Below, piece by piece: positions 3,075 to 45,415 of a DNA stretch of 64,000 bases. Position 1 is the first letter of the stretch. Every line of letters begins with the position of its first letter. Under the pieces are notes generated by a model. It saw only the letters and a list, made by a program, of their open reading frames with translations. It did no database searches and was not told the origin of the DNA. The translations under genes were made by a program, and so were the position numbers. The DNA is taken from the NCBI RefSeq assembly GCF_002209355.2, contig NZ_CP106855.1, positions 372,001 to 436,000 on the forward strand, read 5' to 3'. Source of the stretch: Bdellovibrio sp. SKB1291214. GTDB lineage: Bacteria; Bdellovibrionota; Bdellovibrionia; Bdellovibrionales; Bdellovibrionaceae.

Positions 3075-3178
3075 AGCAAAATCCTTTTCAAGAAGGATCA
3101 AAGCAATTCATATGCCGAGATTTGGAAACACAACTTGCACCGGGCAAAGCGTTATCCGTTCACTATGGCCCCGTGACT

Positions 3179-3730
3179 TTAGAATTCAACCTTGCGCACA
3201 AAATGACAGGTGTATCCGCTTGGATTTTTCTGCAAGTAATCTTGATGCTCGGCTTCAGCTTTCCAAAAGTCTCCTGCTTTACTCACAACAGTCGTCACAG
3301 GCTTACCCCAAGCTTTAGATTTGTTAACCCGGTTGATTACTTTGTAAGCAGTTTCTTTTTGTTGTTCGGAGGTATAAAAAATTTCACTGCGGTATTGAGT
3401 ACCGATGTCATTGCCCTGGCGATTCAAAGTGGTGGGGTCATGGATTTTGAAAAAGAACAGCAGAAGATTTTCATAACTTAGCTTTTTCGGATCGAATTCA
3501 ACCTTGACTGTTTCAGCGTGATTCGACGTTCCTGTTTTTACAATTCCATAAGTCGCGTTCGGGATTTTTCCTCCCATATAGCCAACTTCCGTAGAGGTAA
3601 CACCCGGTTCCTTACGAAGTAATTCCTCCATGCCCCAAAAACACCCGCCAGCTAGATAGGCTGTTTCTGCATGGGAAGCGAATCCTACGAATAAGGTCCA
3701 GATAAAGATCGCAAGTTTTATTGTTTTCAT
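3179..3730 (-). CDS. msrA: peptide methionine sulfoxide reductase MsrA, exported
   Basis: MsrA reduces methionine-S-sulfoxide in proteins. The active-site motif GGCFWG is present with catalytic Cys at residue about 30. The family blocks [35 protein letters not shown] and the C-terminal [11 protein letters not shown] follow. Unlike most cytoplasmic MsrA proteins it starts with a signal peptide ([21 protein letters not shown]), so it should repair proteins in the periplasm or beyond. The resolving cysteine may be the one in GYTCHF near the end. No MsrB is visible next to it. Confidence 0.93.
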
Positions 3731-4447: not shown

Positions 4448-5773
4448 TTATTTAGTCGCCATAAATTTCAAGAAATTGCTATGGTCTGACAGGATCGTCA
4501 GATATTTCAACATGATTTCCTGAGGATAATTAGCTGGATCGTTGTACTTAGTTTGAAACTCAACAATCAATTGATACGTTTGTTCATTGTTCAGCGATTT
4601 AACTTCCTTTAACAAAGACTGTTCTGCCACGGAATAAGCATTTACGCTCATTTCTTGGTAAGTCCCTTTTAAGAAGCTGTCCGCTTTGCTAGAAGCAAAC
4701 AATTTATAGTATTTGTACCCTTCAGTGTCAGCCTGACGGAAGTTCAAGTTTTTAGAAGCAATTTCTTTTCTGTAGTGAGAAGGAATTAGTTTTCCAATTT
4801 GACCAATCATCACTTCATAAACTTTACGCGCACGACTGTCAGGTTTGTTCGCGTCTTGTCTTTTTTGGAAGTCCAAAGCGATTTTAATCAATGAATCACT
4901 TGTCACCACTCGGCATGTTTGATCACCTTGCAACGAAGCCAAGAACACTTCGAAAGTTTCAGTCGCCAAAGCTTTATAGCCCTGATCAGCGGCGCTGTCT
5001 GGACGACTTGCATTGTGGCGCTCTGTAAAGAAGTTCAGAAGCGTCAACGTATATTCTGTCGAAGCAACTGACGTTTTTTCCGACTTAATAGAGGCGATAA
5101 ATTCATTTACAAATTTCGTGAATTCTTTGCTGGCGTATTTTTCCTGCCACGAACCAACGGCACTTGCTTCAGCACGTCCCGCCCAAAGTTGGATGATATC
5201 CAATTTTTCTTTTAAGATGGCGTCGTATTTTCTGCTGCAAGAGTTTGAGTTGTCGTCCCCGTTATTACCGTTATTACCATTATTCCCGCCATTTCCGCCG
5301 CCATTACGCAGCGCTAACTTCGGCGCTTCAACTTTTGAAATGGCATTAATATCCAAAGAAGCATTTCCACCCATTGCTTCCGCTTGGATCTCAATTCCTA
5401 AAATAGATAAATTTGAGCTTGCATTATCGGCTAACAATTCTTTGTCTGAGTCTGCCAACACGACGTTATTAAAGGCCTTCAGCGCAATTCGCTCGTTTTT
5501 CTCATTCACAAGTTGAATGCTAATGACTTTAACCTTGCCTGACTTCACCTTTGCCTTGATAGCAGAAAGTGGAATAGGTTTCGCTAAATCCAAACGATAA
5601 AGGTCTCCGCCACCTTTACGAGTGATATCGCTAATACGGGCGCTGCCCTCGTACTGTGATTGAGCCGCCCACGTGCGCAGCTCGTCTGCACCTGTTGAGC
5701 CTGCGTGCACAAGCGCTGGCGCCTGTAGCACTAAGATGGATGCTATGATTCGTTTTGTCCAAAGAAGTTCCAT
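4448..5773 (-). CDS. exported two-part protein with Gly/Asn-rich linker
   Basis: The 441-residue product has a signal peptide (ending LVHA). Residues about 30-160 form a beta-rich N-terminal domain with hydrophobic/charged alternation (for example VKVISIQLVNEKNERIALKAF). A Gly/Asn-rich linker made of GGNGG and NNG repeats follows at about residue 170. The rest is a long, mostly helical, Lys-rich C-terminal part. The linker DNA consists of short near-repeats and may vary in length. A beta-sandwich module is likely for the N-terminus. I cannot name a function. Confidence 0.68.
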   Translation of the reverse strand: MELLWTKRIIASILVLQAPALVHAGSTGADELRTWAAQSQYEGSARISDITRKGGGDLYRLDLAKPIPLSAIKAKVKSGKVKVISIQLVNEKNERIALKAFNNVVLADSDKELLADNASSNLSILGIEIQAEAMGGNASLDINAISKVEAPKLALRNGGGNGGNNGNNGNNGDDNSNSCSRKYDAILKEKLDIIQLWAGRAEASAVGSWQEKYASKEFTKFVNEFIASIKSEKTSVASTEYTLTLLNFFTERHNASRPDSAADQGYKALATETFEVFLASLQGDQTCRVVTSDSLIKIALDFQKRQDANKPDSRARKVYEVMIGQIGKLIPSHYRKEIASKNLNFRQADTEGYKYYKLFASSKADSFLKGTYQEMSVNAYSVAEQSLLKEVKSLNNEQTYQLIVEFQTKYNDPANYPQEIMLKYLTILSDHSNFLKFMATK

Positions 5774-43754: not shown

Positions 43755-44519
43755 CTAAGGTAAAGTTAAAATCTCGTAGCCCGTATCAGTAACCAGCACC
43801 GTGTGCTCGTACTGCGCAGACAGTTTTCCATCGGCCGTGTTGTAGTACTTGATGGAAGAGTTCGGAATCGCAAACTCAACCACATCCTCAACACCCTGAT
43901 TCACCATCGGCTCCACCGTGATACAGTGGAAAGGTACCAGGCGCTCGCCCTTACCTTTCTTACCAAACGCCGGCACAAAAGGTTCATCGTGGAACGTACG
44001 TCCCACACCATGACCACCGATTTCTTTAACAACCGTGTAGCCCTTGCGAGTCACATACTTATAAGTTTCAAAACCAATGTCACCTGTGTACCCACGAGGA
44101 GTAATAGCCTCAATCCCCTTGTCACGAGCCAACTGCGCCGTTTCCACCAGATCGCGTGCCTCGTCAGAAACATCACCAATCATGTACATGCGCGAAGTAT
44201 CCCCAAAGAATCCATCAATCCAAGCAGTAACATCGACATTGATGATGTCACCATCTTTAAGAATCACTGATGAATCAGGAACACCATGACAAACGACTTC
44301 ATTCACAGAAGTACAAGTGTACTTAGGATACCCGTGATAACCCAGACAAGCCGACTTAGCCCCACGAGTTTTCATAAAATCATTAGCAAGCTCATCAATT
44401 TCTTGAGTAGAGATTCCAATTTTAACGTATTTTTCAAGATAAGTAAGAGTGTCAGCCGCAATCCTGCAGGCCACAGTCATTTTTTTGATCTCTTCAAGAG
44501 ACAGAGGCTTAATTCCCAT
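43755..44519 (-). CDS. map: methionine aminopeptidase type I
   Basis: The 254-residue cytoplasmic enzyme removes the initiator methionine. The pita-bread metal ligands are in place: SVNEVVCHGVPD with His, INVDVTAWIDGFFGDTSRM (two Asp), GHGVGRTFHDEPFVP (His), ITVEPMV (Glu) and QYEHTVLVT (Glu). The start at 44519 (MGIKPLSLEEIKKM) fits the family; the frame upstream to 44561 lies in low-complexity sequence. No N-terminal zinc-finger extension is present. Confidence 0.96.
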   Translation of the reverse strand: MGIKPLSLEEIKKMTVACRIAADTLTYLEKYVKIGISTQEIDELANDFMKTRGAKSACLGYHGYPKYTCTSVNEVVCHGVPDSSVILKDGDIINVDVTAWIDGFFGDTSRMYMIGDVSDEARDLVETAQLARDKGIEAITPRGYTGDIGFETYKYVTRKGYTVVKEIGGHGVGRTFHDEPFVPAFGKKGKGERLVPFHCITVEPMVNQGVEDVVEFAIPNSSIKYYNTADGKLSAQYEHTVLVTDTGYEILTLP

Positions 44520-44672
44520 AGGCAAAAGGTATAACACACCCCCACCCCTACGCCAAGACAAGGATTACCCACAATTCATAAGCTCAACCCAATTGCCCCC
44601 ACCCCAAAAAATCCGAACAAACCCACAAAACCGCCCCCAAACAAGACACCACTCCCTTTCTCCCAACACCGA

Positions 44673-44718
44673 GTCGCAAAGCGACCAGAAAAAGCGGCGC
44701 CAAGTCGCCAAAGGCGAC
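44673..44718. repeat. two consecutive GTCGC-type hairpins
   Basis: GTCGC-AAA-GCGAC is followed 18 bases later by GTCGCC-AAA-GGCGAC. The same arm and the same AAA loop occur twice, so this is a tandem pair of near-identical hairpins. Confidence 0.7.
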
Positions 44719-44808
44719 GGCCAGCCAAAAAAAACAGCGGCGCCCGCAGGGCCAGCCCCAAAACTAACGGAGGCCCCGAACGCGGGGAACGCGAACAGGA
44801 AGAACCAA

Positions 44809-44933
44809 GGGATGGTTCAAAAGCGGTCATATGCAAGGCGGAGGGAGCGAACCGCAGCGCAGGCGTGCCCCAGGCACGTCGGAGCGAGGACCGCACCCGA
44901 CAACGCAGCAGATGGCCGCTTTTCAACCATCCC
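44809..44933. repeat. 125-base imperfect palindrome
   Basis: The 22-base arms at 44809-44830 and 44912-44933 begin GGGATGGTT and end AACCATCCC. They pair with one mismatch and one G-T wobble. The 81-base interior carries its own hairpin GCGTGCC-CCA-GGCACGT at 44864-44880 and the pair GCGG / CCGC. The element looks like an RNA-level structure or a mobile palindromic repeat. I see no second copy in this window. Confidence 0.75.
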
Positions 44934-44944
44934 GCCCCGAAGGC

Positions 44945-44974
44945 AAAAAAAAAGCCACCCTAAGGTGGCTTTTT
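44945..44974. terminator. bidirectional intrinsic terminator
   Basis: The stem AAAGCCACC / GGTGGCTTT with loop CTAA has A8 and T5 flanks. It stops the SWIB gene on the minus strand and could end a plus-strand transcript of the hairpin block. Confidence 0.84.
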
Positions 44975-44995
44975 CCAACTTAATGTAGCAAGAAA

Positions 44996-45415
44996 CTACT
45001 TAAGGTGTTTAGAAACAAGTTTAGTCATGTCGAACATGCTAACTTGAGTTTTGCCGCCGAAAACTTCTTTAAGTTTTGCGTCTGCATTGATGTTACGTTT
45101 GTTTTTAGAATCTTGAAGATTGTTCTTCTTGATGTAAGCCCAAAGTTTTTTAACAACTTCAGTACGTGGAAGTGGTGAAGCACCAACTACTGCTGCTAGA
45201 GCTGCAGATGGAGTCAAAGCTTTCATGAAAGCTGCGTTTGGCTTACGAGCAGTTTTTGGTTTAGCTGCTTTAGGAGCTTTTGCTGCTTTAGCTTTAGGAG
45301 CTGCTTTTTTAGTAGTAGCTTTTGCTTTAGGAGCTGCTTTTTTAGCAGTCGTTTTTTTTGCTGCAGCTTTTTTAGGAGCAGCTTTCTTAGTAGCTTTTTT
45401 AGTAGCTTTTGCCAT
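44996..45415 (-). CDS. SWIB/MDM2-domain protein with histone-H1-like tail
   Basis: The 139-residue protein has two parts. Residues 1-60 are a Lys/Ala/Pro repeat (AKKTTAKKAAPKAKATTKKA) like the tail of histone H1 and of bacterial AlgP/HU-tail proteins; this should bind DNA non-specifically. Residues about 62-139 are a SWIB domain (FMKALTPSAALAAVVG, RTEVVKKLWAYIKKNNLQD, INADAKLKEVFGGK, MFDMTKLVSKHL), a fold shared with eukaryotic chromatin remodellers and chlamydial proteins. It is likely a nucleoid-associated protein. A GGAGGAAT ribosome site precedes ATG. Confidence 0.92.
   Translation of the reverse strand: MAKATKKATKKAAPKKAAAKKTTAKKAAPKAKATTKKAAPKAKAAKAPKAAKPKTARKPNAAFMKALTPSAALAAVVGASPLPRTEVVKKLWAYIKKNNLQDSKNKRNINADAKLKEVFGGKTQVSMFDMTKLVSKHLK

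Follow-up and report, generated by a model that had tools for sequence, protein, structure and literature searches.

An ERIC-like hairpin repeat between map and a SWIB-domain gene of Bdellovibrio, probably a mobile element with a preferred orientation to the replication fork

Introduction

Small palindromic repeats such as ERIC are in wide use in strain typing. ERIC (also IRU or RU-1) is an imperfect palindrome of ~127–130 nt, intergenic and dispersed in the genomes of enterobacteria, with a host range given in one account as Enterobacteriaceae and Vibrionaceae (PMC10969869); another account names the way in which it moves as a question for future work (PMC2229807). REPs are described as being 20–40 bp in length with GTAG or CGTC tags (PMC3733652), and in descriptions of REP/REPIN with RAYT (TnpA-REP) the hairpins show alternative complementary letters in their stems, lie behind genes and sometimes stand beside a Y1 gene (PMC3733652, PMC6006769). 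For Geobacter, several families of multicopy palindromic intergenic repeats are reported (PMC2996986).

The genome of Bdellovibrio sp. SKB1291214, a single contig of 3.68 Mb, harbours between map and a SWIB-domain gene an imperfect palindrome of ~130 nt which, like ERIC, is intergenic and dispersed; like the hairpins of REP/REPIN, its copies show alternative complementary letters in their stems and lie behind genes, some of them beside a Y1 gene. By description it can be likened to the Geobacter repeats of that report. We consider it likely that the block between the two genes contains a single copy of a palindromic mobile element that is non-autonomous and belongs with ERIC, MITEs and REPs in kind, placed between the SWIB terminator and the map promoter. 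The kind is known; its occurrence in this phylum, fork polarity, stop-codon placement and core exchange were not found described in the literature searched (titles and abstracts, with subscription papers outside the scope), nor was any described repeat of this genus.

Results

Layout of the block

The window, the whole stretch of 64,000 nt that was analysed (positions 372,001 to 436,000 of NZ_CP106855.1), contains the block between two open reading frames on the minus strand, whose names come from the original prediction: the methionine aminopeptidase gene map (43755–44519), downstream of the block, and a SWIB-domain gene of 139 aa (44996–45415) that points into the element. A protein search found relatives of map at 16 loci, in records of Bdellovibrio and Bdellovibrionota, and in the fetched relatives the SWIB gene is syntenic with map. 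The strand-skewed segment 44520–44655 is, judging from its position, the 5′ leader and promoter region of map on the minus strand; the C/A-rich lead seen earlier on the plus strand is present and reads as a G/T-rich leader on the map strand. The unusual composition of the block was likewise borne out, with AT skew up to +0.88 and GC skew down to −0.63.

Small GC-rich hairpins with CCAGCCA and A-runs occupy 44660–44800, among them GTCGC-AAA-GCGAC at 44673–44685, GTCGCC-AAA-GGCGAC at 44704–44718 and CCCCG/CGGGG at 44774–44787. On their 3′ side lies the ERIC-like hairpin element (44807–44936, folding strand plus), in which an inverted-repeat search found arms of 26 nt at 44809–44834 and 44908–44933 that are 88% complementary. 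Its inner core (44834–44907, plus strand) carries motifs that are near-invariant in an alignment of 40 copies, namely AAGGCG, GGCGT, ACGTCGGAGCGAG and CAACGCAG. The hairpins and the large palindrome named in the original prediction are thus all present in the sequence.

The block ends with a further hairpin, AAAAAGCCACC-CTAA-GGTGGCTTTTT (44949–44974), which had been taken for a strong terminator usable from the plus strand. The hairpin is there; its use on the plus strand is weak, the T's lying mostly within the stem. On the minus strand it is stronger and nine T's follow just downstream of the SWIB stop codon, so that we assign it to the SWIB gene as its own intrinsic terminator. Element-free relatives (L038–L041) have a terminator-like hairpin in this position downstream of SWIB; a consensus scan listed 44949–44974 in neither direction. 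There is nothing unusual in the remainder of the block, which consists of the SWIB terminator, GC hairpins and the map leader with its strand skew.

The plus strand of 44660–44985 folds with a z of −7.0 against dinucleotide shuffles (0 of 100 shuffles as good), and the minus strand also folds below its shuffles (z −4.2). Since both flanking genes are on the minus strand, RNA transcribed from them would contain the complement of the strand that folds better.

Among 102 distinct copies of the element, 15 have the motif CCAGCCA in the left flank and none has it in the right, and small GC hairpins with CCAGCCA(G)AAAA were seen on the 5′ side of repeat copies, never on the 3′ side. A stretch similar to the 44660–44800 region is found elsewhere in the same genome (2548798–2549078). 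An origin of this 286-nt match in a duplication of SWIB was rejected, as no SWIB relative is present at 2548798.

A dispersed family of copies

A nucleotide search of 39 genomes with the element gave matches in 23, its own genome among them with 14 copies. Model R1 was built from 40 aligned and folded copies (alignment A1, which left out L001–L008 and L053 as duplicates and L030 and L066 for poor alignment). With R1 at E ≤ 0.01, the own genome contains 26 copies, and the copy in the window was matched at 44808–44935 with 142 bits. Within the genus, 21 of 24 genomes have 3–79 copies and G003, G004 and G014 have zero; across the phylum (Bdellovibrionota), matches were found in 51 of 144 genomes. 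Queries with the L106 copy and one pattern found no homologues on plasmids, phages or viral contigs.

Occupied sites, empty sites and exchanged cores

Comparison of orthologous sites shows the element to be both mobile and modular. First, occupied and empty versions of the same site exist: G002:765696 is occupied in G002 and empty in G006 and G023, with flanks that are 95% identical, and G002:634864 is occupied in G002 and empty in G006. The map–SWIB site itself is occupied in the window, in L011 and in L034/L053 (the last two apparently one record) and element-free in L038–L043. Second, at G002:398030 the copy in G006 lacks exactly the stretch between AAGG and CAACG, leaving an arms-only hairpin. 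Lastly, at G002:932947 the same flanks and outer arms enclose a different inner core in G023. By this comparison of genomes, the precise core deletion and the core swap, together with the occupied and empty sites, show mobility and modularity.

In another example, the site G002:768221 has in G006 a copy (L209, near 5109–5271) with an extra small-hairpin module of 64 nt just before ACAACG. The L174 copy (3097–3290) is likewise enlarged near the ACAACG position.

The element has palindromic inverted repeats, a feature of MITEs. No clean target-site duplication was resolved at the compared sites, a TTTA-like repeat being seen at one of them. ERIC has a TA dinucleotide target which it duplicates, whereas no preference for TA was seen here at stop codons: TGA accounts for 8 of 51 stop codons beside copies and 24 of 221 elsewhere (p 0.34), and a TA target at stop codons was therefore rejected.

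RAYT transposases as the possible mover

If the element is mobile and non-autonomous, the best candidate for its mover is an HUH/Y1 nuclease of the RAYT type. Among 24 genomes of the genus, 21 carry genes matching PF01797 (Y1, HUH). At 8 of the 50 RAYT loci examined (of 79 listed), a copy of the element lies just downstream on the same strand, 40–287 nt from the RAYT stop, two of the eight being weak model matches; the same holds for 1 of 6 further loci, and for 4 of 6 members of one RAYT clade. Some of these linked loci look orthologous and so do not count as independent.

This linkage would favour a stricter reading, in which the RAYT (Y1) transposases of the genus act specifically on this element, making it a REP system with unusually long hairpins. 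We regard that reading as rather unlikely. The PF01797 search gave no match in three genomes that bear copies (G013 with 48, G017 with 19 and G008 with 7), and across 24 genomes element number and Y1 gene number are uncorrelated (Spearman 0.31, p 0.14), leaving a dependence of copy number on RAYT unsupported. Several RAYTs have another palindrome, GGGTATCGGTCA, in their flanks, and the possible orthology of some linked loci counts against it as well. The ~130-nt element, whose copy number does not follow RAYT number, differs from REPs in length, and no GTAG or CGTC tag was seen, by eye, as a fixed flank. A mobile hairpin moved in trans is the reading that we prefer.

The GGGTATCGGTCA palindrome and its companion TGACCGATACCC, seen in the RAYT flanks L147, L153, L157, L160 and L166, form a second repeat family of the genus. 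Short tandem repeats (GAGAACC-type, GGAA-type) lie between transposase stop and hairpin in L157 and L166.

A compensated stem with a preferred strand

The original prediction had looked to covariation among homologues, and the 40-copy alignment contains it in quantity: at least one double change occurs in 30 of 41 stem pairs. Double-change cells number 280; none of 500 shuffles reaches this count (75.1 ± 9.2), and sliding one side of the stem out of register leaves 35–59; pairing cells make up 95.8%, compared with 79.3% after shuffling and 32–43% after sliding. Judged from these counts, the hairpin structure is kept while the stem sequence varies. The suggestion of a repetitive RNA-like element, made originally as a second option, thus fits the palindrome well, as a dispersed hairpin repeat rich in compensatory changes. 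Some positions do not vary: the outer stem has an invariant C.C mismatch beside invariant AAAA/TTTT in 40 of 40 copies, and the unpaired motifs CAAGGCGGAGG, GGCGT, GTCGGAGCGAGG and CAACGCAG are nearly fixed across the 40.

On the model strand, G.T pairs outnumber A.C pairs by 122 to 22, and by 39 to 19 once four columns with common T.G are removed, so the evidence for a strand is clear in sum and modest outside those four columns. The consensus folds to −59.4 on the model strand and to −35.6 on the other, and folding as single-stranded DNA was better for the model strand in all three copies tested.

Copies behind stop codons

Of 102 distinct copies, 51 have a stop codon no more than 10 nt from the 3′ foot of the hairpin (model end), and the gene concerned is read into the hairpin. 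Among the 102 placed copies, 76 have a 3′-side gene that points towards the element and 18 one that points away, with 8 left without a call; calls were made with our own codon-score script, with no gene finder. In the window, the SWIB terminator stands between the element and the stop codon of the gene.

Selection for a role as RNA could also account for such strong conservation of structure, and the element might be a structured RNA that the host keeps for regulation (a small RNA or a 3′-UTR element, for example an mRNA stabiliser or degradation signal). The strong covariation with its tolerance of G.U pairs would agree with this, as would the copies directly behind stop codons and the compensatory differences at one orthologous site, G002:398030, where G002 and G023 differ by changes on both sides of the stem. 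ERIC offers a parallel: according to one account, its RNA behind genes changes the decay of mRNA in Yersinia, with an effect that depends on orientation (PMC2229807). However, the gene reads towards the element in 76 of the 94 copies with a 3′-side gene call, so that the mRNA carries the complement, in which G.U pairs become A.C. Moreover, a sigma-70-type promoter scan found no site above chance in the window (2 in the block region against 1.9 expected), and presence of the element varies among close relatives. An RNA function therefore appears improbable to us as the reason for the family, and we return to the mobile hairpin as the better account.

Orientation relative to the replication fork

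In 11 complete chromosomes, with the origin set at dnaA, the folding strand is antiparallel to fork movement in 246 of 264 listed copies, which makes it the leading-strand template. Four genomes were counted in full (150 rows) and seven from the best-scoring rows listed (114 rows); as the genomes are related and the copies not independent, a binomial p overstates the result. The exceptions are 9 copies in G018, 5 of the 6 listed in G007, 2 in G005 and one each in G000 and G016. For G007, with 5 of its 6 listed copies reversed, the origin may lie away from dnaA, or the assembly may differ.

Genes are on the leading strand in 36 of 64 cases in the window and 132 of 192 around copies, a bias far weaker than that of the element. 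Three copies (L168, L173 and L175) break the fork rule yet obey the stop-codon rule, and others obey the fork rule only; with exceptions to each separately, neither rule alone explains the other. The 10 exceptions among 65 in the copy-neighbourhood set are no rate, since exceptions were fetched on purpose, and these copies are also among the 102.

The polarity, together with the weaker bias of genes, might be taken to mean that the block is a selected strand-specific terminator or replication-polarity signal and not a mobile repeat. We hold this to be quite improbable, given a copy number that ranges from 0 to 79 within one genus, sites that differ between close species, and the reversal in G007. 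The single ~400-nt non-coding RNA gene of the original prediction has next to nothing in its favour beyond the low folding energy over 44660–44985 and the terminator-like hairpin at the end of the block, for only the ~130 nt of 44807–44936 are conserved as a unit, the terminator serves the opposite strand, a gene with its own promoter was rejected on the chance-level sigma-70-type promoter scan, a search of Rfam 15 at the gathering threshold matched a tRNA alone in the window (the block giving only weak sub-threshold matches), and orthologous map–SWIB loci without the element, or the block, exist.

Discussion

A possible fork-coupled hairpin element

For the mobile element that we favour, dispersal, a compensated stem, strand asymmetry, placement, fork orientation, empty sites and core exchange are shown by comparison, and they are consistent with the following mechanism. 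Replication would expose single-stranded DNA in which the element folds into a hairpin and moves in that form, and a trans-acting enzyme would do the cutting, a RAYT-type HUH/Y1 nuclease being the most plausible candidate. Copies behind stop codons may survive because they are harmless there, and cores could spread between sites by exchange in shared internal loops. IS608-type elements are described as using single-stranded DNA in a fork-coupled manner, on the lagging-strand template (PMC6006769). In Bdellovibrio, by contrast, it is the leading-strand template that holds the better-folding strand, so that either the enzyme acts on the other strand or the element moves by a different mechanism. 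With many copies, near-perfect polarity, empty sites and core exchange, the family offers a test case for single-strand, fork-coupled movement.

Relationship to ERIC

Most ERIC copies have the same order of parts, from outer stem through AAGGCGG, central hairpin, GAGCGA and CAACGCA to outer stem. The corresponding strand folds better in 8 of 9 copies, and three of 10 fetched loci (L187, L188 and L194) have a gene on the minus strand whose end is at the 3′ foot, both as in Bdellovibrio. These copies were fetched from named records, with primer sequences as the ERIC query.

Over their whole length the sequences are too dissimilar for a model of either family to match the other with confidence. 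On nine ERIC loci, the three best matches of R1 are ERICs on the right strand (E 0.13–0.29), with weak scores of at most 13.0 bits. A model built from ERIC (R2) gave, on 30 element loci, 21 matches at E ≤ 10, of which 10 are at an element and all of these on the folding strand; scores are weak here too, the best at an element being 16.3 bits (E 0.22) and the two top matches overall falling on a different hairpin in L101. As a control, R2 gave one match on 26 Bdellovibrio RAYT loci, besides those on two ERIC loci searched alongside.

The likeness in layout and loop motifs is suggestive of common descent, short of proof, and the hosts differ, enterobacteria and vibrios for ERIC and Bdellovibrionota for the element. 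It is conceivable, if somewhat doubtful, that the two belong to one ancient, phylum-spanning superfamily of ~130-nt single-strand hairpins that settle behind stop codons in step with the fork, their inner core spreading by exchange in two conserved internal loops (AAGGCG and CAACGC). Were this true, the missing mobilisation mechanism of ERIC could be studied in Bdellovibrio.

Variation in the core extends to length. A shorter class of ~106 nt (L179–L185, 43–53 bits) has the same outer layout around a shorter inner core, GCGAGGAGGAAGGCGTAC.
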